Source: Adhaeribacter swui (lineage in GTDB: Bacteria; Bacteroidota; Bacteroidia; Cytophagales; Hymenobacteraceae). From it: a stretch of 64,000 nt of DNA. The notes under the pieces were generated by a model. That model was not told the origin of the DNA, searched no databases, and saw only the letters and a program-made list of their open reading frames with translations. The stretch covers positions 2,734,585 to 2,798,584 of the forward strand of contig NZ_CP055156.1 of the NCBI RefSeq assembly GCF_014217805.1, in the 5' to 3' direction. Below are positions 2,681 to 59,150 of the stretch, piece by piece; within the stretch, counting starts at the first letter, position 1, and each line of letters starts with the position of its first letter. Position numbers and translations under genes: made by a program.

Positions 2681-2903
2681 GGAGCCCCAAAAGCAGCAGC
2701 TAAGCGCGACTGACACCAGTTTGGCTATTGAGGGCCTTCTAAGGTTCAGGTTCTGCGAAGCAGAATTCCGACGCAGGAGGAAAGGAAGCTTAGACCAGCC
2801 CGAAAAAGCCAAACGAGGCCTGCCGGCCATGAGGCAAACTCAGCCTTGTCAAACTAGATAGCACCGCAGCCTGGAGACTTGAAAAGGCTCCAAGGAAGTA
2901 CAG
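2681..2903 (+). repeat. Dispersed structured intergenic element, copy 1
   Basis: This is one of four related copies in the window (others at 27657, 58579 minus and 58945). The shared 5' part reads ACTGACACCAGTTTGGCT and the shared 3' part ends GAAAAGGCTCC. Stems seen here: GGAGCC (2681) with GGCTCC near the 3' end; TTTGGCT with AGCCAAA; CTAAG (2739-2743) with CTTAG (2789-2793); hairpin TTCTGC-GAA-GCAGAA (2751-2765); and TGAG-GCAAA-CTCA. The other copies change these bases but keep the pairing. No open frame is conserved. It could be a non-coding RNA or a non-autonomous mobile element. Confidence 0.85.
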
Positions 2904-2911
2904 AAGAATAC

Positions 2912-3050
2912 GCTTTGGCTAAAGGATGAAACTACTAAACCCATATTTTAGCAGCTTGCCAAAGCAGATCAGGGTTCCGGCTTTTGCCGGAGTAAAGTCA
3001 CAGACTTTACTTTATAAGAAGGCACAAGTTTTGGAAACTTGCGCCAGAAG
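2912..3050 (+). repeat. Cluster of hairpins, REP-like
   Basis: Four dyads follow one another. GCTTTGGC (2912-2919) pairs with GCCAAAGC (2958-2965). Then come TCCGGC-TTTT-GCCGGA, AGTAAAGTC-ACA-GACTTTACT, the spacer TTATAAGA, and CAAGTTT-TG-GAAACTTG. The order hairpin, TTATAAGA, hairpin recurs near 11475-11520, so this looks like a small palindromic repeat family. With element copy 1 it fills most of the 649-base gap before the next gene. Confidence 0.6.
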
Positions 3051-3213
3051 TTGAGCTAGTAAATGTCTTGGGCAGGGCAGTTGCATCCAAAGAGAAATAC
3101 CTAATAATTTGGCCAATGTAGAGTTTATTATAAACGAATACTTCTTGATTAAAATTAATTACCAATAGCAAATTTTTAAAAAATTCCTTAAACCGGAATC
3201 ACAATAATCCTGT

Positions 3214-5388
3214 ATGAGAATACCTTTACTCGCGCTTTTCTCGCTTTTACTTAGTTTACCATTATTCGCCCAAAAAAAGAACGCCGCTTACCAGTTACCC
3301 ATAAAAGAGGCTTCTAGTGAAATTAAAATTGATGGCGTGCTAGATGAACTAGCCTGGCAGGAAGCCGCCGTAGCCAAAGATTTTTACATGATGCTGCCCA
3401 TGGACACCAGCTATGCCCAGGTGCCTACGGAAGTACGCATGACCTACGATAAAAACAACATCTACATCATAGCAACCAACTATGTTACAATACCCGGTCC
3501 GTACATGGTAGAGTCGTTGCGCCGGGATTGGTCTTTTTTAAAAAATGATAATTTTATTTTCTTTATCGATCCTTTCGACGACCAAACCAATGGTTTTGCT
3601 TTTGGTGCCAATGCCGCCGGAGCGCAGTGGGATGGCATTATGTACGAAGGCAGTAAAGTAGATTTAAGCTGGGATAATAAGTGGGTGTCAGCGGTAAAAA
3701 ATTACGACGATAAATGGATTTTTGAAGCCGCTATTCCTTTTAAAACCATCCGGTACAAAAAAGGCATTACCAACTGGGGCATTAACTTTGGCCGGCAAGA
3801 TTTAAAAAGTACCGAAAAGTCGGCGTGGGCGCCGGTGCCCCGGCAGTTTCCGAGCGCGGCTTTGGCATATACCGGTACCCTGGCCTGGGACCAACCACCA
3901 CCCGAAGCCGGTACCAACATTTCATTAATTCCTTACGCCTTAGGTGGGCTATTCCGGAATATTGCCGGCGGGCAAAAAACGGAGTACCGCAAAGAAGTAG
4001 GTATCGATGCTAAAGTGGCCATTACCTCTTCGCTCAACTTAGATTTAACCGTAAACCCCGATTTTTCGCAGGTAGATGTAGACCAGCAGGTAACTAACCT
4101 GGACCGTTTTGAATTATTTTTCCCGGAAAGGCGGCAGTTTTTCCTTGAAAACGGCGATTTATTTACCAACTATGGCTATACTAACATCCGACCTTTTTTC
4201 TCCCGCCGCATTGGCTTAGGCGTGCCCATTAAATTTGGCGCCCGGTTGAGCGGCCGATTAAGTAAAAATTGGCGCTTAGGCGTAATGGATATGCAAACCG
4301 GCGAAGTAGACGAGCTCGGGTTACCGGCTCAGAATTTTGCGGTGGCTTCGTTGCAAAGACGGGTTTTTGCCCGTTCGTATATTGGCGTGCTGTTTATTAA
4401 TAAGGAATCTTTAAACTACAATCCGGGTGCGGAACCCACCAAACCCGTTTACTCGCGCTATAACCGGAACATCGGGTTTGAGTACAATCTGGCTTCGGCA
4501 AACAACGTCTGGACCGGGAAAGCCATGGTTTTAAAATCGTTTAGCCCAGGCAAATCGGGTCGTGATTGGGTACACGCCGCTAATTTGCAGTACGCCAGCC
4601 GGGCCTGGCTGATTAACTGGCAACACCAGTACGTCGGCCAGAATTATACCGCCGAAGTAGGATACGTGCCGCGTCAAGGCTTTATTCAGGCTAGCCCCAA
4701 GGTAAGTTACTCGTTCTTCCCGAAGAAAGGTCCCATCTTAAACCACGGACCAACCGTAAGTACCAACCACATTACCGACGAAAAAATAAAAACTACCGAC
4801 AATACCAGTCTGGTTTCGTACGGGTTCACTTTCCGGAGCCGAAGTACTTTTAACATCTGGACCGCTTACGATTTTGTTAAATTACTATCACCTTTCGACC
4901 CAACCAACTTCCAGGGCGATACGCTGGCGCGCCGCTCTAACCATTCCTGGAAATCCTGGGGAACGGAGTTTGTGTCTAAACCGCAGAGTATTTTTACATA
5001 TTCGTTTACTACCCGCTACGGTGGCTATTACGCTGATGGCACGCGCCTGAACCTGACTGGTAGCTTAGGGTATCGTTTTCAACCGTTCGTGAGTTTAGCC
5101 GTGGCGGCTAATTACAACGACATTAAATTACCCGAACCTTGGGGAAGAAATAAGTTCTGGCTGATTGGTCCGCGTCTGGATGTAACCATGACCAACACCT
5201 TGTATTTAACCACTTTTGTGCAGTACAACGAGCAAATTAAAAACGTAAATTTAAATGCCCGTCTGCAATGGCGCTACAAACCCGCTTCGGATTTGTTTAT
5301 CGTGTACACCGATAATTACTTGCCCACGCACTTAACAGTAAAAAGCCGAGCTTTGGTGGTGAAGTTTACCTATTGGTGGAATCTGTAA
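3214..5388 (+). CDS. DUF5916 outer-membrane protein with CBM9-like N-terminus
   Basis: The 724-residue product starts with a clear signal peptide (MRIPLLALFSLLLSLPLFAQ). Residues 25-230 resemble the carbohydrate-binding family 9 fold found at the start of DUF5916 proteins (IKIDGVLDELAWQEA near residue 40). The rest has the alternating aromatic strands and final WWNL expected of an outer-membrane beta-barrel (DUF5916). Members are common in Bacteroidota near polysaccharide or peptide use genes, but no reaction has been fixed for the family. It is a single gene in front of a small unknown one. Family call is firm, function open. Confidence 0.87.
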   Translation: MRIPLLALFSLLLSLPLFAQKKNAAYQLPIKEASSEIKIDGVLDELAWQEAAVAKDFYMMLPMDTSYAQVPTEVRMTYDKNNIYIIATNYVTIPGPYMVESLRRDWSFLKNDNFIFFIDPFDDQTNGFAFGANAAGAQWDGIMYEGSKVDLSWDNKWVSAVKNYDDKWIFEAAIPFKTIRYKKGITNWGINFGRQDLKSTEKSAWAPVPRQFPSAALAYTGTLAWDQPPPEAGTNISLIPYALGGLFRNIAGGQKTEYRKEVGIDAKVAITSSLNLDLTVNPDFSQVDVDQQVTNLDRFELFFPERRQFFLENGDLFTNYGYTNIRPFFSRRIGLGVPIKFGARLSGRLSKNWRLGVMDMQTGEVDELGLPAQNFAVASLQRRVFARSYIGVLFINKESLNYNPGAEPTKPVYSRYNRNIGFEYNLASANNVWTGKAMVLKSFSPGKSGRDWVHAANLQYASRAWLINWQHQYVGQNYTAEVGYVPRQGFIQASPKVSYSFFPKKGPILNHGPTVSTNHITDEKIKTTDNTSLVSYGFTFRSRSTFNIWTAYDFVKLLSPFDPTNFQGDTLARRSNHSWKSWGTEFVSKPQSIFTYSFTTRYGGYYADGTRLNLTGSLGYRFQPFVSLAVAANYNDIKLPEPWGRNKFWLIGPRLDVTMTNTLYLTTFVQYNEQIKNVNLNARLQWRYKPASDLFIVYTDNYLPTHLTVKSRALVVKFTYWWNL

Positions 5389-5494
5389 ATTTTAAAATTT
5401 TGGAGATATAAGCAGGATGTTTCGGAATTGCCGAACGGAGAACCATGCAACTTCGTACAGACTACTTCACGAACTAACCGAACTTACATTTACT

Positions 5495-5749
5495 ATGGAA
5501 AAACCAAACGTGCTTGTTTTTACTTACCACGAGCTAGATAGAAAACAAACTTATTTAATAAACTTAAATGCGATTTCCCGGATTTTGTTTGAGCAAAACG
5601 GCGACGTAAAATCCCTGCACATTCATTATTCCAATGGCGTAGAAGCCGATAAATTTACTGGTACAGTAGCGGTTTCAATTGCGAACATAATTACCGATAC
5701 TTTAAATCAAGGTAATTCTCCTTACTCATTAAGTACGGAATTGTGGTAA
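5495..5749 (+). CDS. Small hypothetical protein (84 aa)
   Basis: The frame is open from 5417, but the ATG at 5495 (MEKPNVLVFTYHELDRKQTY) is the better start, because the upstream stretch encodes an unlikely arginine- and cysteine-containing leader within a spacer-like region. The product is soluble, without signal peptide or membrane segment, and has alternating strands and a short C-terminal helix. I do not recognise the family. It lies 106 bases after the DUF5916 gene and ends just before a strong terminator, which supports a transcribed gene. Confidence 0.6.
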   Translation: MEKPNVLVFTYHELDRKQTYLINLNAISRILFEQNGDVKSLHIHYSNGVEADKFTGTVAVSIANIITDTLNQGNSPYSLSTELW

Positions 5750-5780
5750 GCTAAACCAGTTTCTGGATAGTTTATAAAAT

Positions 5781-5826
5781 AAAAAGTGCCGGCTATTCTT
5801 AATTAAGAGTAGCCGGCACTTTTTAT
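5781..5826. terminator. Bidirectional terminator
   Basis: A near-perfect palindrome has 15-bp outer arms (AAAAAGTGCCGGCTA and its complement) around a loop that is itself palindromic (TCTTAATTAAGA). A runs on the left and T runs on the right let it end transcripts from both the small plus-strand gene and the minus-strand yifB. Confidence 0.85.
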
Positions 5827-5992
5827 TTATCTTGATTTTAAGGCTGATGAAATCAGAAGATTTTAAAAATTTATTTTTTCTGAAGTTGTACTTAGAGCGC
5901 TAGGCTAACTCTACGCATAACAGCAGGTAGTTTGAATTCCCGAAAATTAGAAAAATTTAAAAATTACAATCTGGTAAACCGTAAGGTTAAAA

Positions 5993-7531
5993 CTAACCGG
6001 CCCAGCCTTCGCGGTCGAGGCTGCGGTACTGGATGGCTTCGGCTAAATGCTCAATTCTAATTTCATTGGTTCCCGCCAAATCGGCAATGGTGCGGCTTAC
6101 TTTTAAAATGCGGTCGTAAGCGCGAGCCGACAAGCCCAAACGTTCCATGGCAGTTTTGAGCAATGCTTTGCCACCGGCGTTTATCTCGCAAACTTCTTTC
6201 ACCATCTGCGAGGGCATCATGGCATTGGAATGAATATTGGGAAAATCTTTAAACCGTTCTTCCTGAATTTGCCGCGCTTTTACCACCCGTTCCCGGATAG
6301 CCTCGCTACTCTCCGTTTTCCGCGACTCAGTCATTTGGTCAAAAGTTACCGGCGTTACTTCCACGTGCAAATCAATGCGGTCCAGCAACGGCCCGCTTAC
6401 TTTATTTAAATACCGTTGCACTACTCCTGGCCCGCACACACAATCTTTCTCGGGGTGGTTGTAGTAGCCACAGGGGCACGGGTTCATGCTAGCGATCAGC
6501 ATAAAATTAGCCGGAAAATCAATGGTCATTTTGGCCCGGGAAATCGACACACGTCGTTCTTCGAGCGGTTGGCGCATTACTTCCAGTACGGTACGTTTAA
6601 ACTCAGGTAATTCGTCCATGAACAACACGCCGTTGTGCGAGAGGGATATTTCGCCGGGCTGCGGTACGCCACCGCCACCCACCAAAGCTACATCCGAAAT
6701 GGTATGATGCGGCGCCCGGAACGGCCTGGTGGAAAGCAAAGAAGCCGACTCGCCGAGTTTACCTGCTACTGAATGAATTTTGGTAGTTTCCAAGGCTTCC
6801 TGCATGGTAAGCGGGGGTAAAATAGACGGTAAGCGTTTCGCCAGCATGGTTTTACCCGCCCCCGGAGGCCCAATCATGATCGCATTATGCCCGCCAGCCG
6901 CCGCAATTTCCAGGGCGCGTTTTATATTTTCTTGGCCTTGTACGTGGGCAAAATCGGCTTCGTACTGGTTAACTGTAGCCTGAAAAATATCACGGGTATC
7001 GATTACCAGAGGCGCAATGTCTGTTTTACCATCAAAGAAATCAATGGCTTGTTTTATATTTTCAACCCCAATAATATCGAGTTTATTCACGATAGCGGCT
7101 TCGTTGGCGTTTTGTATTGGCAAAACAAATCCTTTAAAACCTTCTTTGCGGGCTTGTATGGCAATGGGCAAAATACCTTTTACCGGGCGCAAGGTGCCAT
7201 CCAGAGAAAGTTCGCCCATTATAATGTACTCACCCAAGCGTTCGCCGCGCATTTGATCGGAAGCCGCCAAAATACCTAAAGCAATGGGTAAATCGTAGGC
7301 CGAGCCTTCTTTGCGAATGCCCGCGGGCGCCATGTTAATGACTACTTTTTGCCGGGGCATGCGGTAGCCATTGTATTTTAAAGCCGATTCGATGCGTTGC
7401 TCACTTTCTTTAATGGCGTTATCGGGTAAACCCACCATGTAATATTTGGTACCCGGCGTTACATTTACTTCCATGGTAATGGTATAAGCGTTTACGCCTT
7501 GCACCGCGCTGCCGAACGTTTTTATGAGCAT
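5993..7531 (-). CDS. comM: YifB/ComM family Mg-chelatase-like AAA+ ATPase
   Basis: The 512-residue length is typical of YifB/ComM. The N-terminal domain (1-180) has the Lon-like ChlI fold with MLIKTFGSAVQGVNAYTI. Walker A is GPPGAGKT at 221-228, and a Walker B-like GVLFMDELPEF lies near 300. A cysteine cluster CPCGYYNHPEKDCVC near 350 and a C-terminal Mg-chelatase domain follow. In competent bacteria ComM is a hexameric helicase that helps branch migration when foreign DNA is integrated by natural transformation; that role is known from other phyla and inferred here. It stands alone, ending near the bidirectional terminator at 5781. Confidence 0.93.
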   Translation of the reverse strand: MLIKTFGSAVQGVNAYTITMEVNVTPGTKYYMVGLPDNAIKESEQRIESALKYNGYRMPRQKVVINMAPAGIRKEGSAYDLPIALGILAASDQMRGERLGEYIIMGELSLDGTLRPVKGILPIAIQARKEGFKGFVLPIQNANEAAIVNKLDIIGVENIKQAIDFFDGKTDIAPLVIDTRDIFQATVNQYEADFAHVQGQENIKRALEIAAAGGHNAIMIGPPGAGKTMLAKRLPSILPPLTMQEALETTKIHSVAGKLGESASLLSTRPFRAPHHTISDVALVGGGGVPQPGEISLSHNGVLFMDELPEFKRTVLEVMRQPLEERRVSISRAKMTIDFPANFMLIASMNPCPCGYYNHPEKDCVCGPGVVQRYLNKVSGPLLDRIDLHVEVTPVTFDQMTESRKTESSEAIRERVVKARQIQEERFKDFPNIHSNAMMPSQMVKEVCEINAGGKALLKTAMERLGLSARAYDRILKVSRTIADLAGTNEIRIEHLAEAIQYRSLDREGWAG

Positions 7532-7660
7532 GAATTCTGTCCGTAAATTTAAATATAGAGAATTAGGTATAGTTGGAAGCGCAACAGGAACCGGCCGAAA
7601 TAAATTCCAGATTTTTAAATTAAGAGAAGAAGTTTTCAGTTTTAACTTTTACAAAATGTT

Positions 7661-8149
7661 CTAAGCAATTGAATTAAAGAGCCCTTTTCTTCTTTCAAAT
7701 TGAACACCCTGTAATCGTTTTAAGGCTAATTCTAGATTTGGAGTTAATAAACAAGTAATAATGAGTTCTTCTCCTGCTTTAGTAAGTATTCTTGCATAAT
7801 AATAGCTTTCAATGGCTAAAAAGTGAAGATTACTTCCTTTATAAATGCTTGGTGACATATACACTATTATTCGTTCTATATCGCTGTTTTTGCATCGCTT
7901 TGCTGTAGAATCTTTATAGTGTACTAATTCATTCTCGCTTACTCTATATTCTTCACCTAGATTTCGAATATAATACTCAATATGTAAGTATAAGGCAGGT
8001 AAAACATCAATACAGTAGCCAATAGAAAAAATAAATACAAAATCTTCATCAAAATTTGCCCAAACAAGAATAATAAAGCTTAAAGCCGTTATAATGAAAA
8101 AGGAAAGTAAGGCTTTAAAATGATTGGATAAATTCTCTTTCAATACCAT
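7661..8149 (-). CDS. Hypothetical protein with two membrane segments
   Basis: The ATG at 8149 (MVLKENLSNHFKALLSFF) gives 162 residues; a TTG at 8182 would add 11 with no gain in sense. Two hydrophobic helices (about residues 14-32 and 37-55) are followed by a roughly 100-residue soluble region rich in beta strands (NELVHYKDSTAKR, IERIIVYMSP), a layout like bacterial PH-domain membrane proteins. I cannot name the family. Codon choice is AT-rich compared with neighbouring yifB and gmhA, which may point to a newer acquisition. Confidence 0.65.
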   Translation of the reverse strand: MVLKENLSNHFKALLSFFIITALSFIILVWANFDEDFVFIFSIGYCIDVLPALYLHIEYYIRNLGEEYRVSENELVHYKDSTAKRCKNSDIERIIVYMSPSIYKGSNLHFLAIESYYYARILTKAGEELIITCLLTPNLELALKRLQGVQFERRKGLFNSIA

Positions 8150-8245
8150 TCTTTTATATCCAAGGAGCCTATTGGTGGACAAAAACTAAAAATATTAAAT
8201 TTTAAAAATTTCTATTTAACATCCAACATCTAATATCCAATTGAA

Positions 8246-8833
8246 CTAAGCACCAACTACCTTTTGCTCAATCAGCAAAATCAGGATATGGATAACCTTA
8301 ATGTGAATTTCCTGGATACGGTCGGCGTAGCCAAAGTGGGGCACCCGAATTTCGACGTCGCTGAGGGCGGCTAGTTTACCACCGTCTTTGCCCGTGAGGC
8401 TCACTATTTTCATGCCTTTTTCGCGCGCAGTTTCAGCGGCTTTTAAAACATTGCCAGAGTTGCCGCTGGTACTGATGGCTAATAAAACATCACCGGGATT
8501 TCCTAAAGCTTCGAGGTAGCGCGAAAAAACAAATTCGTAGCCGTAATCGTTGCTCACGCAGCTTAAATGACTGGGGTCCGAAATAGAAATGGCCGGTAAA
8601 GCCCGGCGATCGTGGCGGTACCGGCCCGATAATTCTTCGGCGAAATGCATAGCATCGCACATAGAGCCACCGTTGCCGCAGGATAGTATTTTACTGCCGT
8701 TTTTTAGGGCATTGCTCATGAGCTCGGCGGCAGCCTCTATTTGAGCTATATTTTCCGGATTTTTTAAAAAATTAGTTAATACAGTTTGGGCCTCGGTTAG
8801 TTCGGCCAGAATAAGATCAGAAGTACTAGACAT
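8246..8833 (-). CDS. gmhA: D-sedoheptulose 7-phosphate isomerase
   Basis: The 195-residue protein matches E. coli GmhA closely over its length. It has [20 protein letters not shown] at 51-70, the SIS-domain phosphate loop STSGNSGNV near 121, and [15 protein letters not shown] at the C-terminus. It converts sedoheptulose 7-phosphate to D-glycero-D-manno-heptose 7-phosphate, the first step to the heptose of the lipopolysaccharide core. It starts 3 bases after the stop of the upstream small membrane protein, so these two are co-transcribed, probably with the MsbA-like exporter further upstream. The neighbours support an envelope role. Confidence 0.95.
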
Positions 8834-8836
8834 GCT

Positions 8837-9262
8837 TTAGATAGAATCAGAATTTCGGGGCGCAGACTGGTTGGAGTCCTGGCCCGATGAAAAACCGGGT
8901 TTTACAATAATGGTGTTGCGATCGTAATACGGCACCGTTGAGTTTAAAGGTGTAGTTCCCGGAGAAACAGTAGAAGCAGCGCTGCTTTTATATTGCTGCA
9001 TTTCTTGTTTCTGGTCGTACAACAACGCTTTTAGCTCATTTACTTTGCGGTCCTTATGCGTATGTTCGCGTTTTAAGGTGGCAATATACAAGTTTTCTAC
9101 CAGCAGTTCGAGCAGTAAAACTACGCCGCCGATAATATAAAAAGTAGTGTTAAAGTTCGGGTTGGTATCCTGGCCTACTTTTAAAACATCCAGGTAAATG
9201 AGGGTAGCCGCCACCAGGTACAATAACACGACTACATTTACAAATTTCTTTATAGCTTCCAT
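8837..9262 (-). CDS. Small membrane protein with coiled-coil tail
   Basis: The 141-residue product has two membrane helices (about 7-25 and 40-60), then a charged stretch that should form a coiled coil (about 62-95, LKREHTHKDRKVNELKALL), and a low-complexity serine/threonine/proline tail. No family is recognised. It sits between the MsbA-like exporter (137-base gap) and gmhA (3-base gap), so a role in envelope biogenesis is a guess from context only. Confidence 0.75.
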   Translation of the reverse strand: MEAIKKFVNVVVLLYLVAATLIYLDVLKVGQDTNPNFNTTFYIIGGVVLLLELLVENLYIATLKREHTHKDRKVNELKALLYDQKQEMQQYKSSAASTVSPGTTPLNSTVPYYDRNTIIVKPGFSSGQDSNQSAPRNSDSI

Positions 9263-9399
9263 AGGTATAGATTTAAAAGTGCGATTTGTTAATAGTACGT
9301 AAATGCGCTGTCTTAGATAATCCTTTGGGCTTTAAAGAAAAATAAACCTCTAGGTGATACAAATTGACGTTTGCTTTAACCCGAGTTCCTGAAAATGAG

Positions 9400-11250
9400 C
9401 TACAAAGAAGCCACGCCTGTAGTAATTTGCATTTGATTAAGCCGGGCGTACAAGCCATTTTGCCGTAGCAATTCTTCGTGGGTGCCGCGTTCCCGGATGG
9501 TGCCTTTTTGCAGCACAATAATCTCGTCGGCGTGCTGAATGGTGCTCAGGCGGTGGGCAATAACCAGCGACGTGCGGTTGCGCATGAGGTTGATTAAAGC
9601 TTCCTGCACTAATTTTTCCGATTCGGTATCCAGCGCCGATGTAGCTTCGTCCATAATTAAAATAGGCGGATTTTTTAAAATGGCTCGGGCAATGCTGATG
9701 CGCTGGCGCTGCCCACCCGATAATTTGCCGCCCCGGTCGCCAATGGTGGTTTGATACCCGTCGGGGGTTTGCATGATAAAATCGTGGGCATTGGCAATTT
9801 TAGCGGCCGCTATAACTTCGGCTTCGGTAGCGTTAGTTTTGTTAAAGGCGATGTTGTTAAAAATGGTATCGTTGAATAAAATAGATTCCTGGGTTACTAC
9901 GCCCATTTGTTCGCGCAGCGAGTGCAAGGTGCAGGTTTTAATATCGATGCCATCAATGGTAATTACGCCGCTGGTTGGGTCGTAAAACCGAGGAAGCAAA
10001 TCGGCCAGCGTAGATTTGCCACCCCCCGATGGACCAACCAAGGCAATAGTTTTTCCTTTCGGGATGGTTAGATCAATGTGCTGCAAAACTGGTTCGCTGC
10101 CGTAAGCAAAAGATACATCGTTAAAAGTAATAGAATCCGAAAAAGCGGGCAACGTTTTAGCGGTAGGTAAATCCCGGATTTGCGGCTGGGTGTCAATAAT
10201 CGCCAGAATTTTATCGCCCGAAACCAAACCTCGTTGAATGTTGCTGAACGCCGTTGAAATAGCTTTGGCCGGTACCAACACCTGCGAGAAAAGCACAATG
10301 TAGGTAATAAACTCACTCGCCGATAAATCAGATTGTTTATTAAGCACCAGCGTGCCGCCGTAAAATAAAATGCCTGCTACGGCGGCTACGCCCATAAATT
10401 CCGAAATAGGGGAAGCCAAGCTGCGCTTGTTAGTAATAGAAGTAATAATGCGCGCGTAACGGTTGTTCTGCTGGCCAAATTTATTAATTACGTATTCCTG
10501 GGCATTAAATGCTTTAATTACCCGCATGCCGCCCAAAGTCTCGTCGATAATGCTCAGGATAGTACCTAGGGATTCGTGCCCTTCAACAGCGCGTTGTTTT
10601 AATTTTTTAGAAATGGTAGAGATAATGTAACCCGAAATAGGCATCACCAACACTGTAAAAAGCGTCAACTTAACCGACATGGTAAAAAGCATCACAAACA
10701 AACCCACAATGGTCAGCGGCTCGCGTGATACTACGTTTAAGGTACTAATTACCGAATTTTCAATTTCTTGCACGTCGGTAGTCAGGCGGGTCATGATGTC
10801 GCCTTTGCGCTCATTTGAAAAAAAGCCGAGTTGCAATTGCGTAATGCGTTCGTAAACCGCCAAACGTAAATTGCGCACTACTTTGGCCCTAATAGCCCCG
10901 TCGAGCCGCAAACTTAAGTACCGGAATAAATTGGCCAGTAAGTTCGAAACCAGAATTAAGATACAAACAAACTGCAGCGCGCCGCTTTTGCCGTTTTCCG
11001 AAATAATCTGTCCGAAGTAATAATTAAAGTATTCCTTCGCGAAATCGAGGCTTAAGCTAAACTCAGGTTTTTGAATAACAGCCTGGGCTTTGGAAGTATC
11101 AACGGTACCAAAAAGAACTTCGAGTAAAGGAATGAGTAAGGCAAAGTTAAACAAGCCGAAAACAATGCCCAGAAAGGTAAAAATAAAATACTGCGGCACA
11201 AACCCGCCAAAAGGCCGGGCAAACTGCAATATGCGCCAATAAGTTTTCAT
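9400..11250 (-). CDS. ABC exporter, MsbA-like (permease fused to ATPase)
   Basis: The ATG at 11250 (MKTYWRILQFARPF) is the likely start, giving 616 residues; a further in-frame start 14 codons upstream adds an unlikely leader. Six membrane helices occupy about 1-320. The nucleotide-binding domain has Walker A GPSGGGKST near 404, the signature LSGGQRQR near 509 and Walker B ILIMDEATSALD. This half-transporter layout fits lipid A/lipid flippase MsbA or a multidrug exporter. The downstream gmhA favours a lipid or lipopolysaccharide role, but msbA is not assigned. Confidence 0.9.
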   Translation of the reverse strand: MKTYWRILQFARPFGGFVPQYFIFTFLGIVFGLFNFALLIPLLEVLFGTVDTSKAQAVIQKPEFSLSLDFAKEYFNYYFGQIISENGKSGALQFVCILILVSNLLANLFRYLSLRLDGAIRAKVVRNLRLAVYERITQLQLGFFSNERKGDIMTRLTTDVQEIENSVISTLNVVSREPLTIVGLFVMLFTMSVKLTLFTVLVMPISGYIISTISKKLKQRAVEGHESLGTILSIIDETLGGMRVIKAFNAQEYVINKFGQQNNRYARIITSITNKRSLASPISEFMGVAAVAGILFYGGTLVLNKQSDLSASEFITYIVLFSQVLVPAKAISTAFSNIQRGLVSGDKILAIIDTQPQIRDLPTAKTLPAFSDSITFNDVSFAYGSEPVLQHIDLTIPKGKTIALVGPSGGGKSTLADLLPRFYDPTSGVITIDGIDIKTCTLHSLREQMGVVTQESILFNDTIFNNIAFNKTNATEAEVIAAAKIANAHDFIMQTPDGYQTTIGDRGGKLSGGQRQRISIARAILKNPPILIMDEATSALDTESEKLVQEALINLMRNRTSLVIAHRLSTIQHADEIIVLQKGTIRERGTHEELLRQNGLYARLNQMQITTGVASL

Positions 11251-11742
11251 GCCCGCAAAGGTAATAGATTTAGTCGATAGTCCACGGACCATAGTCGATA
11301 GGCCCCAGTTGATGAACGGTAGGTTAAGATAGATGGCATATAATACTACCTTATCAAAATTACATTGACGATTAGAAGAAATTTAAAATTTTTAAATTTT
11401 TGCTTTAGCAGAAGCTTGTGAAAGTTTGGTATTATTAGCGTAAATACCAGCTTTGACCCAGTATCTCCCGCCAGCTTGTAGCTGGTGGGTAATTATAAGA
11501 GGAAGTTTTCAACTTCCTGCCAGTTGAAAACTGGCTGCCATCAGTAGCTCCAAGATACACTGCGTTAATCTTGAAGCAGGACGTGCGAAAAAGTTTCTGG
11601 TGCGGGTTAATCCTGCGATGTTATAAGAGCAGTGCTTATGGGCGGATGTTGTTGTGTTGTTGCCATTGTTTGTGTCTGCACAAACAACTTTCCACTTTTT
11701 GCGGCAGCCCTACAGAAGTTGGTAACAAAAATTTTTAAAAAT
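11251..11742. other. 492-base spacer with palindromic repeats, no gene
   Basis: Both flanking genes run leftward. The spacer holds an A/T box (near 11380 and again near 11735) and the hairpin cluster listed separately. A 70-codon plus-strand frame at 11632 runs into the 3' end of the Wzi-like gene and shows no protein-like composition. Confidence 0.6.
11472..11546. repeat. REP-like hairpin pair around TTATAAGA
   Basis: In order: a hairpin CCAGCT-TGT-AGCTGG with imperfect CCC/GGG extension, the spacer TTATAAGA, the palindrome GGAAGTTTTCAACTTCC, and CCAGTTGAAAACTGG. The same order and spacer occur at about 2990-3050 with different stem sequences, so the fold seems to be kept and not the bases. 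Confidence 0.55.
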
Positions 11743-27568: not shown

Positions 27569-27601
27569 AAAAAGCCTTCTCTGAAAAGAGAAGGCTTTTT
27601 G
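27569..27601. terminator. Terminator between convergent genes
   Basis: Stem AAAAGCCTTCTCT/AGAGAAGGCTTTT with a GAAA loop and T run on the plus side and A run on the other. It can serve both orientations. The 923-base spacer between the TIM-barrel gene and the GMC gene holds this, the two repeats before it and element copy 2, and no credible gene. Confidence 0.8.
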
Positions 27602-27656: not shown

Positions 27657-27872
27657 GGAGCAGTGTGCTAAACGCGACTGACACCAGTTTGGCTATTGAG
27701 AGCCTTTTAGCGATTCGGTGTGGCGCAGCCACATTCCGCAGCGGAGCGAGGAAAGATTCGCTAAACCGCCCGAAAGAGCCAAACGAGGCCCGCCGGCCAT
27801 GAGGCAAACTCAGCTATTTCAAATACGATGGAACCTTGGCATGGAGACAGGAACCGGCTCCAAAGAACTACT
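27657..27872 (+). repeat. Dispersed structured intergenic element, copy 2
   Basis: Same element as at 2681. The compensatory changes are clearest here: TTTAGCGA (27706-27713) pairs with TCGCTAAA (27758-27765) where copy 1 has CTAAG/CTTAG, and hairpin TGTGGC-GCA-GCCACA (27719-27733) replaces TTCTGC-GAA-GCAGAA. TTTGGCT/AGCCAAA, GAGGCAAACTC and the closing GGAGC/GGCTCC are kept. It ends about 36 bases before the stop codon of the convergent GMC gene. Confidence 0.85.
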
Positions 27873-48804: not shown

Positions 48805-48906
48805 TTTTCCTACCCCCTTCTTTCATTTCCTACATTCAGGCTATTAGTTCAAGCAAGACTGGCCGAAGCCATTTATGAACCAGCCAAAAGCGCCCAAGTT
48901 CCGGTA

Positions 48907-48933
48907 CCCGCATCCGTGCGGGGGAGATTTTTC
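48907..48933 (+). terminator. Hairpin with T run ahead of the giant gene
   Basis: CCCGCA-TCCG-TGCGGG followed by GGAGATTTTT. It could end read-through from the kinase/regulator operon or act as a leader attenuator, being 40 bases upstream of the ATG at 48973. Confidence 0.5.
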
Positions 48934-48972
48934 TATGTTATTTACCTTTATTTTACTACTAACTCATTGGTC

Positions 48973-51900: not shown

Positions 51901-54900
51901 CGGGTAGCCGGTGGCCAGGTACAAGGGGATAAACCTTTGGGCATGGGTCTTTCAAAAAACAATTTGGGTACGGCCAAAATTACCTTAGAGCCCGAAAAAG
52001 GCGGCGACCTGGATGAATCGCCCACAAATTTTAAAAAAACCATTGATTTAACTACCGATCCGCAAACCGGCGAATACACCGCCTGGATCATACCCGAGCG
52101 CTTTATTGTAAAGGAGGTAAAAACCAACAATACCCTTACCGACGGTTCGCGCTATAATTTCGGGGAGCAACCTATTCTGGATTTAAGTTTACCTGTTTCG
52201 GATTTACGTTGGGAGTACCAACTGGATAATAATGGCAAGAAAGCAGATTCGGCCAGTTACCACTTCAGCAAAAAGTTTGTGCTGCACAATCAAACCAAGT
52301 GGTCCATTAACAATAACGAGCTCATCGGGGAGGAGAAAATTAAACTCAGCAACAGCGGTCCGGAGATCGACCTTTCGAGTAAACCCTTCGGTGCGCCGGT
52401 ATTTTACATGAACGCCCAGTACGAGTTTCCATTGCGGTTTTTTGAAGAATACGAAAATGCCGACGATCACGAAAAAGAACTGGTGCCGGTAACCAACGCT
52501 AAAATAAAACTAGTTAATAATTGGAAGCAAGGAAACCCCGACGAAGAACTGATTCTGAATAATCCGCAGGGTGTTTTCAATTATAAATTCCGGGCCGGCA
52601 GCCCTAATTTAAGTGGCACCTACACCTATAACTTTTCGGCGGCCATAAAAATTGGAGACCAATCTTACGCCGATTTAGGTACGCTTCCCGGTTATATTTT
52701 GGGGCAGATTACGTCGGGTTCTGGTTTTGTTACCAAAGGCCCCGATGTGGTAGAATTTATTCTGCGTGATCCACCGGGAACGAACAGCTACGCCTACCTG
52801 AGCAAAGGCTCTACTACCACCAAAACCATGTCGATCTCGAATGTAGGAGGCAGCACCCAAACCATTAATCCAACCTTTTATCTGGGTACCGAAATTAAAA
52901 CTTCTGCTGGTTTTGGGGTAGCTTTAATAACCGAAACCGAAATTGAGCATGTACTTTCCAACGAAGATGTAATCACCGAAAAAAGGTCGGAAAATGGGCA
53001 GTTAGTGGAAAGTTTACAGGTAACCGAAGGTTGGAAAACCAGCGACGACCCGGAGTTAGTCGGTAGCACCGCCGATTTATTTGTGGGCCGGGCTATGAAT
53101 TTTATCTTGGGTAAAACCGAAACACTGGAATTATTAGAACTAAAAGCGCCTTTTGATCAGCTTCCGCATTCGGCTCCTTTTACTTACCAGGGCAAAACGT
53201 ACGCGCTGGTGCGCCGGCAGGGGATGGCCGCCGCGCAGGATAATTACGGCACCCGGTTTATGTATACCCAACAGCATATTCAAAATAATTTAATTCCTAC
53301 CCTCAAGAATTTCCGGAATAGTTTGTTGCTCCGCGGCGATAACGTGTATGTTTCTAAAATCGCCAAAGGAGATGCCCGGTTTGGTGCCGATAACTACGAC
53401 CAACAGATATTTGCCAACGCAGCTTTGTCTAAACCCGCCGAAGGTGTAGCCACCCGTGGCGCATATTCTGGCCCCAGTTATAGTTTCAATCCGGCTAAAC
53501 GCGGCGATCCCGATTCGGTGTACTTGCTTAATCAGCAAATAACGCTTTGGCAAGAAGCCCTGCGAAGCAATGAAGCCAATAAACTGGATGCTAAAACCAA
53601 AGGCACCGCCGAAGGTATTACCAATGTTTCCTTCGATGGCGGAGTAACCCAAACCTGGGAGAAAAACTTAAATTCGCTCTGGGGTACCAATACCACCATT
53701 GAAGTAACCGCCGACGCTTCGCTGGAATTTATGACGGGTGGTAAGTTTAACGGTTTTGGGGCTACCATTCGGGTAAAGGCCAACTTTTTCAATAATTTTT
53801 CCGGCTCCGTTGGCGAATCCACGAACGAGAATTTAACCTTTGGCTACGTTTTATCTGATGGGGATAAAGGAGATTTTTACAGCGTAGATGTGATTGACCC
53901 ATCAGCCATTAAATTATTAAATGATAAAGGCGACCATGTAGTTTGGGCCGATTATTACAACGTAAAAGAAGAATTTGCCGATCGCAAAGAAGGATACAAC
54001 AATGGGTTCTTTTCGCCGATGTTTTACACCCGGGGCGGGCAAACCTCCTGCCCGTACGAATGCGACGAAAAAACGCAGTATTACCAACCCGGTAAAATAT
54101 TAAATGCCGCTACCCTGCGCCGCGAAAAACCCGAAATAAACGTGGAAAACAACATTGTTACGGGGGTGCCCGAAACCAATGCCGCCGTTTTTAAAATTTT
54201 GCTGCAAAACAACGGTGACTCCGACGAAGATATCTGGTACGGCGTGCAGGTCGATGAAAATTCTAACCCTAGCGGGGCGGTAATTACCATCGATGGTTCT
54301 ACTCCCAACCGGGCCTTCCGGGTACCGCACGGCGAAGTAGTAGAAAAAATATTAACCGTGAAAAAAGGACCTGGCGCAATATTTAACTACGAGAACCTGG
54401 GCATTGTGCTGCACTCGCTCTGCGAACCCGGTACGGTTTCCGACACCGTAAAAATTTCCGCTTTTTTTGCCCCGGCCTGTACGCCCGTTACCATGCTAGC
54501 ACCTTTGGATAACTGGCTCGTGAATGTGGATGCGCAAGGTAAAGTGCCCGTGCAACTATCGGGCTATGACGTAAACCTGCGGTCGTTTAAGAGCATCGAG
54601 CTGCAATACAAATCCACGGCTTCTAACACCTGGGCTACTATTCATACTTTCTTTAATAAAGAGGCCGATTACAATGCCGCTATTGCGCAAAACAAAGATG
54701 CTGCTGTATCTAAAATTGGTGGTAAAACCACCATTAACTTTAGCTGGGATATAACCGATTTACCCGACCGGAATTACGAGTTACGCGCTAAATCTAATTG
54801 TACCGATGGTTCGGTGAGTTATACCGAAGTGAAAAAAGGCTTGAAAGACGTGGTGCCGCCGCTGGTATTTGGCGCCCCGCAACCCGCCGACGGTATTTTG

Positions 54901-57900
54901 TCGCCGAACGACGAAATTATGATTCAGTTTGCCGACCCGGTAGAAGCTGGTTTGATTAACAAAAGCAATATTACCGTACGGGGTGTACTCAATGGCTCGG
55001 ATCTGGCGCACGGTGCTTTCCTGCATTTTGATGGCAAACAAGGTGATGTGCGCATTCCGGAGGGCTTACAAATCAATAACCGTTCGTTTACCGTGGAGTT
55101 CTGGGCGCGGGTAAAATCCAATACCGCCAATGATGACCAGATACTCTTTACCCAAGGTACCGGAACCGAAGCCATCACCATTGGTTTTGATAAAACGGGT
55201 AAACTGTTTGCTGGTTGGGGAACCACGCCCCGGGTACTGGCTACTAAAACCTTGCCGGCCAACAGCTGGCAGCATTACGCGGTTTCCTACGATGCCCCGG
55301 CCAATAAAGTAAGTCTCTATGGCAACGATCAATTATTAGCCGAGAAAAATCAGGTGGATGTGGTTGCCGGACAGGGCGTAGTTTATATTGGTTCTTCGCC
55401 GGTTAACGGCAATGCTTTCCAGGGCGATGTACACGCGCTTCGCGTTTGGGATCAGTATAAAAACCGTGACGAAATATACGCGGCCCAATCCATCCGGTCG
55501 AACGGTGGGGAACGCAGCTTAATAGGTTACTGGCCTTTCAACGATTTAAAAGGAACCACAGCTAAAGATCTGGCCCGGGCCTTACACGCCGAGGTAGCCG
55601 CCCAATGGGTAACCGAACCCGCTTCAAAAGCCATTTCGCTCAACGGCAATGGTTACGTAAAAGTAAACAGTGGTCATACTCCTATCACGCAAGACGGCGA
55701 CTTTACCCTGGAATTCTGGTATAAAGCGGGTGCCAATGCTGTTAATACCGCTTTGTTCTCGGCCGCCTTACTCAATACCGATGTAAAATGGTTTTTAGAA
55801 TTTGATGAACAAGGCGCTATTTTTCTGAAACAAAATAACCTGCTGATTAACGCCGTAGAAAACAATACCCTGGATGGCAAATGGCACCACTTGGCCATGA
55901 TCGTGGACCGGCGGGGTAACCTATCGTTCTTGCTGGATGGGGCGCTGACCAATTACCGCAAAGCTGATGTTCTGGCACCATTAACCGTTCCGGCCTTGTA
56001 CTTTGGGGTGCGTTACGATCAGACTTCTACCGCAGGGGGTACGCCCAAAACTACCTTTAGTAATTATTTTAAAGGCCAGCTAGACGAAATCCGTTTCTGG
56101 AACTCGGCCCGTACCACCGAACAGATAAACCGTTCATTAACCACGAAACAACCCAACGACCTGGCCGATTTACAAATTTATTACCCATTCGAAGCCTACC
56201 AGGACAACAGCGGCGTGATGCTGTCGGTAGACTCGGATAAAGAACAAAGCGGCAAAACCACGGATCAGGCTACTTTTGTAAACGCTACCTACACCAACGA
56301 ATCGCCGAAAATTGACCGGCCGCAACCCGAGCAAAAAGTAGATTTTAACTACGTTATAAACCAAGATAAATTGCTGATTACTTTAAACGAGCCGCAGGAA
56401 CTAGTGGAGAAAACGATTCTGGATATAACCGTGCAAGGTGTCATGGATAAAAACAGCAACGTAATGCCCGGGGCTAAAACCTGGTCGGTGTTTGTCGATA
56501 AAAACCAGGTAAAATGGGTAGATTCTAACCGTAATTTTGAAAAAGAAGTAAATAAGCCTTTACAGTTCGAAGTGGAGATTACCAACCTGGGCGGTAACCA
56601 GGAAAGTTTTCAAATTGATGGTCTGCCGGGTTGGTTAACGGTTAGCCCCGCCAATGGGCCCATCGAGCCCAACAGCCGCAAAACGCTGGTGTTTACCGTG
56701 AGCGAAAGCTTAAACATGGGCCGGTATACCGAAGATATTTTGCTCCGGACCAATTTTGGCTACGACGAAAAACTGGCCTTGCACCTGAAAGTATTTACCC
56801 CAGCTCCCGAGTGGACCGTAAATCCGCGCAACTTCAGCCAATCCATGAGTATCATTGGACAGGTAAAAATCAACAACCAGTTCTCCATTAACCCCGACGA
56901 TAAAGTGGCCGCTTTTGTAAATGGGCAATGCCGGGGAGTAGCCCAAATGGAGTACGTACCCGCCTACGACCGTTACTTGTTTTTTATGCAAGTGTACGGA
57001 CCGGGCGTAGCGAATGAGAAAATAAGCTTCCAGATTTGGAATGCCGATTTGGGCGTCACGCATACCGATGTAATACCGGCTACGTTGGCTTTTCAGGATG
57101 GAACGGTGCATGGCTCTACCGCTAACCCGTATCTGCTGACCGCCAATAACACCATTTACCAGGAACTAGACTTAAAAGCGGGCTGGAACTGGATTTCTTT
57201 TAACGTGGATGTAAAAAACAAAGATCTTGCTGCCGTGCTGGACCCAACCGTAATTGACCGCAGTTCCGTATTTATGTCGCAGGATTGGGTAGCGGATTAT
57301 TCGGCGGGGGTATGGTCGCCGGCCGGCAAACGGGTTACCAACGTGGCCAGCTATTTACTGAAAGTAGGAGCAGCGAAGAAGTTACAGGTAAAAGGCAGCA
57401 TGTTAAACCCAGCGAACGAGATAATTACCCTCAAAAAAGGCTGGAATTGGGTAGGTTACACGCCGCAGGTGAGTATGCCGGTGACCGATGCATTAGCCGG
57501 CGTAAACTTAGCCGACGGCGATATTATTAAAAGCCAAACCGATTTTGCCGTGTACGATAAGAATAAAGGTTGGGTAGGTAGTTTAAAAACCCTTAAAAAC
57601 GGCCAAGGTTACCGCATACAATCATCGCAGAACGCGGATTTAAATTTTGCTTATCCAAAAATGTCCGTGAATTCAGGCAACCGCACGGCAAATGCTGAAT
57701 CGCCGCTAGCTAAATTAGTAAACCCGGGAGTTTACCCCTATAACATGAATATGGTAGCCGAGATAGCTTCTGACCAAATTGTGGAAGAAACCGGAATTTT
57801 GGTCCACAATGCGGCTACCGGCGAAAAAGTTGGTTGGGGTACGGGTTACCTGGTAGAAGACAAAGTTTTATTTTTCATTACTATGTTCGCTAACCAGGAA

Positions 57901-58323
57901 AATCAGGCATTGCGTTTTTCTTACCACGACAAGCAGGGTAACTTACTGGTGAACCTGAAAGAAACCTTACTCTTCCAGAGCGAGCAGCTTACCGGTAGTA
58001 TTCTGAAACCTTTCCGGTTTACTACCAACGGCACCTGGGAGAAACCGGCGGAGAAAGTTGCCCAAGCAGCCCGGGTGTTTCCTAATCCGTTTACCGAAAC
58101 ATTTACGGTAGAATGGCAAAACAATCCGACCGAAACGGTTACCCTGGAGCTGTATGATTTAGCAGGCCGGCAAGTAAAACGACTCTGGAGCGGCCAGATA
58201 ACTACGGAACAAGGTTCCTATACTTGTCCGCCGCAACAGCAAGCATCCTTAAGGGCCGGCGTTTATTTACTGCGGATTACCCAAGGAACGAAGCAGGAAA
58301 TTGTTCGGGTAATTAAAAACTAG
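48973..58323 (+). CDS. Giant T9SS surface protein (about 3116 aa) with LamG and Fn3 domains
   Basis: The frame is open from 48916, but the ATG at 48973 starts a clean signal peptide (MKHFYKRFLGLFFLFFLGIG). The N-terminal part (30-150) is unknown and has paired cysteines (DCGTCKND). Several Fn3-like domains lie at about 155-590. LamG/concanavalin jellyroll domains lie at about 596-772, 2014-2193 and 2219-2399 (TVEFWARVKS, LEFWYKAG, DEIRFWNSARTTEQI). Other regions are strand-rich without family call (ca 800-1900, with a second Cys group SCPYECDEK). The C-terminal 80 residues are a T9SS type A domain (VFPNPFTETFTVEW, RAGVYLLRI). It is likely an adhesin or matrix protein. No enzyme domain is seen. 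Confidence 0.9.
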   Translation: MKHFYKRFLGLFFLFFLGIGSTSVFAHNFLYEIGYDQKSGRIFFTVSVDERDCGTCKNDKLKDLDITVTLNGVTHTLLDNASYGNRNGTYKNVLLVNNGSGWGDTYDRQGYYFNIPSDWIGKSLTFRTHYDWGDNDDKQGDKVNDFQIAGLQGKPTITAFPTGEQNQVKLTWEKPGANGYAPERIRYYIYQNDQLIAGLDYNTTSYIDPNTVYGYRYNYRIVARVNLTREFLVNNPNYFDTGSANVVAWKNSKLVLTPTFVPCATGITLTWPRPNLDGAYSYKILRSARPDFSTITNTFDVNGGLNTLTYFDDTNLQHQKSHYYKIQVIRPDKQVATELTSEVASITPDLSPAAPQISLADYGTYFKIIWSGYSCASVTNFKLIRKVIQAGKIIENTTTNLDPKPGAWADEKLQACNTYEYQLVAVNQYAEVAGNILSKAVPDQIADALEWGTDVTERNNPQNPFYNHDYKFKASKGFFTSYIQLQWDAKYKSRIESYEIYRKIAGTNNTRELVHVAEGGSSTQWLDEFAEANTMYEYTIEGVATCNGQPIKSREAKALGFRAPFGTVSGRIFFEGGQVVEKVQVRARNTDGAAGKALAFTNNTAAFDIKASRIFWPSQEGWALETWLRPTDIATNYVLYDHLENGQGLQISYENGRYILSAGAEQVSIQPGDFLKNNEFHHLSVSLNTVSRQVQWVVNDSVFTPQQLTNAFQPNTNADLSLVFGNSRAYNQGFQGVIDEIRIWNKPRTAAQLVQDYSRFLDGSEPGLIAYWKLNEGFSDYAFDGSRVDRKYNENHAKLKGSFEWTTTIPSEDQLANVAYTDSKGNYRLTNIQFRGSGESFEITPLLGVHTFDPNSLLLFIGEGALSHNGKDFKDISSFITKGSVRYQGTSFPVQGVQMLVDGKTLLNASNVPVMSDAKGEFEARVPIGQHVLSFVKNGHVFQNAYWPAENQPHDFQEHLRGQLEILDTTKVKLIGRVAGGQVQGDKPLGMGLSKNNLGTAKITLEPEKGGDLDESPTNFKKTIDLTTDPQTGEYTAWIIPERFIVKEVKTNNTLTDGSRYNFGEQPILDLSLPVSDLRWEYQLDNNGKKADSASYHFSKKFVLHNQTKWSINNNELIGEEKIKLSNSGPEIDLSSKPFGAPVFYMNAQYEFPLRFFEEYENADDHEKELVPVTNAKIKLVNNWKQGNPDEELILNNPQGVFNYKFRAGSPNLSGTYTYNFSAAIKIGDQSYADLGTLPGYILGQITSGSGFVTKGPDVVEFILRDPPGTNSYAYLSKGSTTTKTMSISNVGGSTQTINPTFYLGTEIKTSAGFGVALITETEIEHVLSNEDVITEKRSENGQLVESLQVTEGWKTSDDPELVGSTADLFVGRAMNFILGKTETLELLELKAPFDQLPHSAPFTYQGKTYALVRRQGMAAAQDNYGTRFMYTQQHIQNNLIPTLKNFRNSLLLRGDNVYVSKIAKGDARFGADNYDQQIFANAALSKPAEGVATRGAYSGPSYSFNPAKRGDPDSVYLLNQQITLWQEALRSNEANKLDAKTKGTAEGITNVSFDGGVTQTWEKNLNSLWGTNTTIEVTADASLEFMTGGKFNGFGATIRVKANFFNNFSGSVGESTNENLTFGYVLSDGDKGDFYSVDVIDPSAIKLLNDKGDHVVWADYYNVKEEFADRKEGYNNGFFSPMFYTRGGQTSCPYECDEKTQYYQPGKILNAATLRREKPEINVENNIVTGVPETNAAVFKILLQNNGDSDEDIWYGVQVDENSNPSGAVITIDGSTPNRAFRVPHGEVVEKILTVKKGPGAIFNYENLGIVLHSLCEPGTVSDTVKISAFFAPACTPVTMLAPLDNWLVNVDAQGKVPVQLSGYDVNLRSFKSIELQYKSTASNTWATIHTFFNKEADYNAAIAQNKDAAVSKIGGKTTINFSWDITDLPDRNYELRAKSNCTDGSVSYTEVKKGLKDVVPPLVFGAPQPADGILSPNDEIMIQFADPVEAGLINKSNITVRGVLNGSDLAHGAFLHFDGKQGDVRIPEGLQINNRSFTVEFWARVKSNTANDDQILFTQGTGTEAITIGFDKTGKLFAGWGTTPRVLATKTLPANSWQHYAVSYDAPANKVSLYGNDQLLAEKNQVDVVAGQGVVYIGSSPVNGNAFQGDVHALRVWDQYKNRDEIYAAQSIRSNGGERSLIGYWPFNDLKGTTAKDLARALHAEVAAQWVTEPASKAISLNGNGYVKVNSGHTPITQDGDFTLEFWYKAGANAVNTALFSAALLNTDVKWFLEFDEQGAIFLKQNNLLINAVENNTLDGKWHHLAMIVDRRGNLSFLLDGALTNYRKADVLAPLTVPALYFGVRYDQTSTAGGTPKTTFSNYFKGQLDEIRFWNSARTTEQINRSLTTKQPNDLADLQIYYPFEAYQDNSGVMLSVDSDKEQSGKTTDQATFVNATYTNESPKIDRPQPEQKVDFNYVINQDKLLITLNEPQELVEKTILDITVQGVMDKNSNVMPGAKTWSVFVDKNQVKWVDSNRNFEKEVNKPLQFEVEITNLGGNQESFQIDGLPGWLTVSPANGPIEPNSRKTLVFTVSESLNMGRYTEDILLRTNFGYDEKLALHLKVFTPAPEWTVNPRNFSQSMSIIGQVKINNQFSINPDDKVAAFVNGQCRGVAQMEYVPAYDRYLFFMQVYGPGVANEKISFQIWNADLGVTHTDVIPATLAFQDGTVHGSTANPYLLTANNTIYQELDLKAGWNWISFNVDVKNKDLAAVLDPTVIDRSSVFMSQDWVADYSAGVWSPAGKRVTNVASYLLKVGAAKKLQVKGSMLNPANEIITLKKGWNWVGYTPQVSMPVTDALAGVNLADGDIIKSQTDFAVYDKNKGWVGSLKTLKNGQGYRIQSSQNADLNFAYPKMSVNSGNRTANAESPLAKLVNPGVYPYNMNMVAEIASDQIVEETGILVHNAATGEKVGWGTGYLVEDKVLFFITMFANQENQALRFSYHDKQGNLLVNLKETLLFQSEQLTGSILKPFRFTTNGTWEKPAEKVAQAARVFPNPFTETFTVEWQNNPTETVTLELYDLAGRQVKRLWSGQITTEQGSYTCPPQQQASLRAGVYLLRITQGTKQEIVRVIKN

Positions 58324-58578
58324 CCTTTTGGTTTACCCCGCTTAACTAACGGAGTAACCTTGATTTTTTAAAATTTTTAAGAATTTACAACCGAAAAGCA
58401 GAAGTAAAGCCACTAAATAACACCACCTAACTAAATCCGGTATCAACACCAACCAACCATTAGCTTTAGCCAGGTGAGCTCCTGGTTAAAGCTGATACCG
58501 GTAAAAAAATTTAAAAAAATATTTACCAAGGTATTATATTAAAAAGCTAAAGGAGTTTTCCATAGCAGGTCCAGGTTA
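58324..58578. other. Spacer downstream of the giant gene
   Basis: Start of a 963-base spacer between convergent genes (58324-59286). It contains an imperfect dyad GGTTTAC...GAGTAACC just after the stop (possible terminator) and A/T boxes near 58365 and 58510. The element pair follows. No gene seen. Confidence 0.5.
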
Positions 58579-58803
58579 CTGTAGTTCTTTGGAGCCTTTT
58601 CAAGCCTCCAGGCGTTGGTGCTATCTTGTTTGAACAGGCTGAGTTTGCCTCCTGGCCGGCGGGCCCCGTTTGGCTCTTCCGGGCTGGTCTAAGCTCGTTT
58701 TGTTCGTACCTCACAATGCCTCGTTCCTCGGCACCACAACCTTAGAAGGCCCTCCACAGCCAAACTAGTGTCAGTTGCTCTTAGCTTCGGCTTTTCTGGC
58801 TCA
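58579..58803 (-). repeat. Dispersed structured intergenic element, copy 3 (minus strand)
   Basis: Reverse-strand copy of the element at 2681. Read on the minus strand it keeps the ACTGACAC start, TTTGGCT/AGCCAAA, CTAAG/CTTAG (plus positions 58741-58745 and 58689-58693), GAGGCAAACTC and the GGCTCC end. The central hairpin is different and longer (GTGCC with GGCAT). Its 5' end faces that of copy 4 at a distance of about 140 bases. Confidence 0.85.
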
Positions 58804-58944
58804 TTCCGAATGAATGAAGGATTGTAACTTTAAACTTATTGACTGCAACCAATAGATTTTTTAAAATTAATTTCCTAGTTTGTTTGCCTTTTTAACTAAC
58901 TTAATAGAAGATAGCTCAAACAATTAGTACTACTCTAAATAAGT

Positions 58945-59150
58945 TGAGTCGGTAGCTAAAAGTAAATGACATCAGTTTGGCTGTAGAGCACCTGCTAGGG
59001 TTCCGGTGTGGCGCAGCCACATTCCGCAGTGCAACGAGGAAAGGAAGACTAGCGAGTGCGGAAGAGCCAAACGGGGCCCGCCGGCCAGGAGGCAAACTCA
59101 GCCTTACCTAATTAGATAGCACTTGAGCATGGAGACTTGAAAAGGCTCCA
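58945..59150 (+). repeat. Dispersed structured intergenic element, copy 4
   Basis: Shortest and most diverged copy. Stems kept: GCTAG (58994-58998) with CTAGC (59049-59053), hairpin TGTGGC-GCA-GCCACA (59007-59021), TTTGGCT with AGCCAAA, and GGAG/CTCC at the 3' end. It lies head to head with copy 3. Confidence 0.85.

Follow-up and report, generated by a model that had tools for sequence, protein, structure and literature searches.

A dispersed element of Hymenobacteraceae genomes is very probably a structured RNA and may act at transcript ends

A non-coding element with a conserved core of approximately 210 nt recurs four times in a stretch of 64,000 nt of the Adhaeribacter swui genome (contig NZ_CP055156.1, positions 2,734,585 to 2,798,584), hereafter the window. 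The element is dispersed through Hymenobacteraceae genomes, with about 100 or more copies in several of them, and it very probably represents a structured RNA family under selection. As for its role, we see about even chances that these elements form a new dispersed family of structured RNAs, once mobile and now used at transcript ends. The original prediction, made from the letters of the window, had named two candidates, a novel structured RNA and a non-autonomous mobile element, and our results support it. Besides the signs of selection on structure, the 112 places found in the A. swui genome and a vacant site in a related genome point to turnover.

Selection on RNA structure, first proposed from paired changes among the four window copies, is borne out by covariation within and across genera, by an excess of G-U pairs, and by the pairing kept at loci shared between two species. 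In an alignment of 94 copies from A. swui (genome G000), from which rows with E >1e-29 were dropped, 96.7% of the pairs were standard, compared to 84.4% after shuffling, and none of 500 shuffles was as high. Changes on both sides were found in 32 of the 42 base pairs (460 cells with such a change), and none of the five measures was reached by any of the 500 shuffles. When the partners were slid by one base, pairing dropped to 48-54%, and over slides of one to three bases it was 27-54%. Across genera, 38 of the 42 pairs had double changes among 96 sequences (0/500 shuffles as high). Covariation in many copies is thus present above the shuffle and slide controls, which are unaware of the tree. 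The wobble pairs are asymmetric as well, with 94 G-U versus 36 A-C cells once the single pair with a G-U majority is excluded. This excess suggests that it is the RNA of the named (+) strand that folds.

The core, as delineated by aligning the window copies with other copies of the family, starts with a leader of consensus AAAAGC.GTAGCTAAG.GCAACTGACA. A closing helix (GTTTGGCT/AGCCAAAC) encloses a multi-branched domain with the inner helices GGGC/GCCC, TCTAAG/CTTAGA and TTCC/GGAA, and with two hairpins at the tip. This domain is followed by a GC-rich GGCC....GGCC hairpin and, after a variable segment, by the 3' hairpin (TGGAGaCTTgaaAAGgCTCCA). A search for further long-range pairing or a pseudoknot turned up nothing convincing; apart from the helices above, it showed a short hairpin within the variable segment. 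Folded singly, copy 1 of the window had a z-score of -2.4, while the 5' 128-146 nt of two other A. swui copies reached -5.3 and -4.6, and identical helices were recovered. Outside the core, no flanking position is strongly conserved among 95 A. swui copies, and in most copies conservation stops where the RNA does. Downstream of the element, a second dispersed repeat rich in hairpins (AGCAGCTTGCCAAAGCAGAT...GTTCCGGCTTTTGCCGGAGTAAAGTC...ACTTGCGCCAG) was seen, in the window at approximately 2953-3050, and also at loci L044, L049, L052, L054-L056, L062, and L067.

In the window, the element occurs as two solo copies and as one head-to-head pair formed by copies 3 and 4, an arrangement that the original prediction had passed over, as it had the orientation behind genes:

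2689..2897, + strand: copy 1, solo element (model core 2716-2893)
27657..27867, + strand: copy 2, solo element (model core 27684-27863)
58585..58795, - strand: copy 3, left arm of the head-to-head pair (model core 58589-58768)
58796..58944, no strand: spacer between copies 3 and 4, weakly alike across pairs
58945..59155, + strand: copy 4, right arm of the head-to-head pair (model core 58972-59151)
2587..2648, + strand: terminator-like hairpin and T run of the upstream gene, before copy 1 (by eye; its long loop left it unscored by the terminator script)
27569..27600, + strand: terminator-like hairpin and T run, before copy 2 (scored by the terminator script)

Reading and aligning the copies confirmed the predicted coordinates of all four to about 10 bases. 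Copy 1 lies where it had been placed, while its leading GGAGCCCC falls outside the core shared by the family. The compensatory changes proposed for the middle of the element are present in the alignment, both CTAAG/CTTAG versus TTTAGCGA/TCGCTAAA and GCTAG/CTAGC, and the hairpin change TTCTGC/GCAGAA versus TGTGGC/GCCACA. The motif ACTGACACCAG, described as common to the copies, holds only in part, as copy 4 reads AATGACATCAG and copy 3 reads ACTGACACTAG instead. A scan of the window with a covariance model built from 96 sequences (the second model below) returned exactly the places of the four copies and none besides (E <= 4.3e-39), as expected by construction, because the four belong to these 96 sequences.

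The search of the genome and its relatives with a covariance model, suggested along with the original prediction, found copies far beyond the window. A first model, built from 32 A. swui copies, gave 117 matches in the A. swui genome, all on contig C3. They correspond to 112 non-overlapping places after removal of those overlapping a better match, mostly their own opposite strand, and 3 of the 112 score <50 bits. The same model matched 59 of 150 genomes of the family, which is a lower bound, as stricter filters and 18 candidates per genome were used. The second model, with its 96 sequences from several genera, was run on 12 chosen genomes with opposite-strand overlaps kept, and matched eight of them. 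There were 129 matches in G084 and at least 150 in G130 (both taken as Pontibacter, here genus g3, of the Hymenobacteraceae, Cytophagales), 72 in G008 and 20 in G013 (a further genus), and 26, 29, 52, and 1 in the others, the single match being that of G038. G008 and G013 had no match with the first model and were for that reason included as negatives in the searches for partner genes, but are carriers by the second model, which matched nothing in genera g4 and g5 (four genomes).

A degenerate-pattern scan of named genomes retrieved at least 120 stretches. Among the 80 matches listed, 78 came from Pontibacter, Rufibacter or Sabulibacter (the last two being the names taken for genus g6), and all 78 match the second model; two Actinomycetota rows among the 80 do not. 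Viral contigs gave no match in an exact-pattern search, and neither did plasmid and phage collections in a blastn search with copy 1 as sole query. Along contig C3 of A. swui, the spread is uneven (83 units, chi-square p 0.0008): density peaks at 2.5-3.5 Mb, in the region of the window, and few copies lie close to the contig ends. The GC skew of the fetched A. swui loci is too weak to read replication polarity. In G084, a strand bias between replichores was not significant (47/300 shuffles equally good), and no even spacing was found among 82 of the 129 matches.

Loci shared between two species show how the element changes in place. Twenty regions of the related genome G004 were picked from the matches listed for it (at least 48) and compared with copy-bearing A. 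swui regions only. The flanks of 11 of them match such a region, and those of one more on a single side. The gap of copy 2 is also occupied in G004 and G003; in the gap of copy 1, the G004 copy lies approximately 800 bp further on, and G005 has no copy. At shared loci, 164/1200 paired sites differ versus 339/1349 unpaired sites, in 15 of 17 comparisons, the other two being excluded for long, poorly aligned rows. The values are 14/250 versus 51/293 in the three closest comparisons, and 0/82 versus 17/100 in one of these three, between L258 and L334. Most of the changed pairs still pair (73/99), through 60 double and 13 single changes, and 26 are unpaired.

The site of copies 3 and 4 measures 73 bp in G004, compared to 776 bp in the window genome, so that this pair was gained or lost there. 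The comparison of empty sites, which had been expected to reveal the insertion boundaries and any target duplication, succeeded in part: the vacant pair site was found, but its flanks are too diverged to read exact insertion ends. A separate observation concerns the GMC oxidoreductase gene adjoining copy 2, which has an internal TAG in G003 (G003:C1:6266561-6268273, 96% identity).

The copies have a preferred position relative to genes, as called by longest open reading frame. In 49 of 57 A. swui solos the upstream gene is in sense, and only 1/57 lies between divergent genes. This count covers 57 of the 58 solos, one having no fetched DNA; two fragments were dropped, and one 36-bit fragment beside a full copy was kept. 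Of the 26 pairs, 13 lie in convergent, 10 in co-directional and 3 in divergent gaps. In other genera, the upstream gene is in sense in 44/62 cases (10/72 were skipped as duplicates or near an end), and there are 22 convergent versus 10 divergent gaps, compared to 6 versus 11 among the background gaps of these loci. A riboswitch or leader, which would lie upstream of, and in sense with, the gene that it regulates, was rejected, because 20/57 solos face a convergent downstream gene.

Approximately half of the A. swui copies form head-to-head pairs, and 58 of the 84 units are solo. Neighbours within 1.5 kb were head-to-head 27 times (once with a fragment), never tail-to-tail, and in tandem 1 and 1 times. 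In G084, the 82 matches listed out of 129 all lack a neighbour within 1.5 kb, which suggests that pairing is commoner in the genus of the window; a single head-to-head case came to light in Pontibacter qinzhouensis (L193). In several head-to-head pairs (L259, L260, L266, L270, L325, and L329) the weaker arm is a longer, lower-scoring subtype of 205-233 nt, opposite a standard arm.

Such pairs could be the units of an inverted-repeat transposon (a miniature inverted-repeat transposable element, MITE), with the element as its arms, the solos as remains, and the covariation stemming from hairpin-templated DNA repair. The lack of tail-to-tail neighbours would agree with this, as would the weak likeness of the 26 pair spacers and the larger unit of approximately 500 bp, with ends that look inverted by eye, in which some copies of G006 reside. 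We nevertheless regard a MITE as distinctly unlikely, given the predominance of solos and the unpaired listed copies of G084. Furthermore, no target duplication was found for 47 solos and 21 pairs, matching flanks being hardly commoner than in mispaired controls, in agreement with the original prediction, in which no terminal duplication was visible. A G-U excess on one strand would also be unexpected from the repair of DNA hairpins. Eight copies close to contig ends of G006 (L089-L095, L100) were seen to have, approximately 110 bp upstream, the palindrome CCCTAAATTAGGG with an adjoining insertion sequence whose ends read TGTGTCCTAATCGTAG, in either orientation.

No conserved promoter-like signal was found upstream of the 95 A. 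swui copies, which fits read-through transcription. We propose that a process resembling transposition once distributed the copies, and that they may then have been retained because the read-through RNA would act locally. This RNA would be supplied by transcription running on past the upstream gene. Its likeliest job would be to bind a host protein that decides the fate of the trailing transcript, with 3' end formation, stability, or the curbing of read-through to the next gene as candidate outcomes. Action at transcript 3' ends has, in our view, slightly less than an even chance, and a dedicated protein partner is suggested tentatively. Somewhat unlikely is the broadest form of the idea, a family-wide RNA regulon in which a dedicated protein or machinery would read one branched fold behind about 100 genes and govern transcript ends genome-wide, the copies being of mobile origin and kept by selection.

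Several points weigh against a selected RNA at transcript ends. Alignments A6-A8 were fitted to the structure, as were those of the 94 A. swui copies and of the 96 sequences from several genera, and this biases them in its favor. At the shared loci, the ortholog was the closest of the 17 in just 3/17 cases, and orthologues are often no nearer than paralogues; what looks like selection in place may therefore stem from gene conversion or from replacement of copies. The second repeat lies within 300 nt downstream of 18/47 solos, versus 2/48 paired copies, so that the unit may be larger in some solos. In other genera, 10/62 copies are located between divergent genes. The Bacteroidetes promoter pattern has a loose match at 4/95 copies where <1 is expected, and a few copies may have a promoter of their own. 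Finally, 18/43 solos have a terminator-like hairpin between the stop codon and the element (reverse strand 13/43; shuffled expectation 2.3), and 2/43 have one within 120 nt downstream of it, so that the usual end of the transcript often comes before the element. Together with the absence of a conserved promoter, this placement of terminator-like hairpins implies that transcription past the upstream gene would be the main source of any RNA made.

Group IIC introns insert behind terminators, in sense, and a retroelement resembling a short interspersed nuclear element (SINE), its RNA copied back to DNA, could have done the same. Sense orientation behind terminator-like hairpins would agree, and so would conservation that ends with the RNA for most copies (the second repeat after 18/47 solos notwithstanding) and the missing target duplication. 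However, RVT_1, the domain found in reverse transcriptases of group II introns, had no match in G006, G044, G084, and G013, all of them genomes with many copies, and the Rfam searches gave no group II match. We therefore find a SINE-like origin improbable, and neither a retron-derived element nor the group II intron fragment considered in the original prediction finds support. RVT_1 is present in G000, G004, G005, G108, G038, and G008. Equal-scoring reverse transcriptase genes that look like a recently active retroelement were noticed in two of these (G004:C1 2677729, 4154061, 5830043, and 5849056; G000:C1 40783 and C3 4574910).

Many stand-alone structured RNAs with mostly unique flanks could also be guide (omega-type) RNAs serving a TnpB or IscB nuclease in trans. 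This is hardly credible, as the TnpB domain PF07282 was matched in 0/13 genomes, compared to 6/14 control genomes. The RRXRR domain of IscB (PF14239) had no match in the 13 genomes, with the control set likewise without match. Among TnpB, reverse transcriptase, and the RAYT transposases discussed below, no gene fits as a mobiliser or partner.

Repeats dispersed behind genes tend to be short palindromes and to be regarded as selfish DNA; here, an elaborate fold is kept across genera and at shared loci. If the element is transcribed, few structured RNA elements in these bacteria would outnumber it. It would also let one test directly whether dispersed repeats turn into a shared regulatory network, and which molecules bind them.

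MITEs and repeats of the enterobacterial repetitive intergenic consensus (ERIC) type are short, non-coding and dispersed, have no open reading frame, and probably spread by past mobility. Our element is likewise short, non-coding, dispersed, and without an open reading frame, but its core has neither terminal inverted repeats nor target duplication, and its internal branched RNA covaries. No description or annotation of it was found in the open-licence PMC literature. In a comparison with Rfam 15, no family matched the window at the gathering threshold, as the original prediction would have it, and with permissive settings, 1, 3, and 5 further stretches gave only weak hits, all below threshold. 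Compared with the candidate structured RNAs of Bacteroidetes presented in PMC2864571, the element is alike in its intergenic position and evidence of covariation, and unlike in its approximately 100 or more matches in several genomes. Those of its motifs that carry an Rfam number were covered by the Rfam searches; two others, GUCCY-hairpin and Bacteroides-2, are given without one in its Table 1 and lie outside the comparison.

The closest resemblance in placement is to repetitive extragenic palindromes (REPs) and bacterial interspersed mosaic elements (BIMEs). According to PMC3733652, REPs lie behind genes, between co-directional or convergent genes, and form dimers of opposite orientation; mobility and a role as RNA have been proposed for them. 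The many dispersed intergenic copies behind genes and the inverted head-to-head dimers of our element match this description. It could thus be a giant, selfish, non-autonomous repeat of this kind that depends on a transposase, of the tyrosine (Y1/RAYT) or another type, with the fold needed for transposition and the position merely tolerated. A GTAG in the leader window of 44/95 A. swui copies, Y1_Tnp matches in 11/13 genomes (most of them short and RAYT-sized, a few IS200-like), and the vacant pair site in G004 would speak for it. We consider it unlikely all the same, because G008, with 72 element matches, and G038, with one, have no Y1 match. Moreover, GTAG was not seen by eye in the g3 and g6 loci. 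The second model found a copy in just 1/14 Y1-gene regions, approximately 4.5 kb off, and the first model none within 1.5 kb of 8 Y1 genes. A short palindromic repeat (TCATTCAGGAGGAACCTATTT...CTCCTGAATGAC), present near copies in the flanks of L050, L061, L304, and L305, could be the repeat of a resident RAYT. Membership among REPs or BIMEs was rejected: the element agrees with them in position and dimers, and departs from them in the GTAG (or CGTC) tag, which is not consistently present, in not flanking the RAYT genes, and in size, with approximately 210 nt versus 20-40 for a REP. Unlike these repeats, it carries a multi-branched fold across genera, whose pairing is retained after divergence at shared sites.

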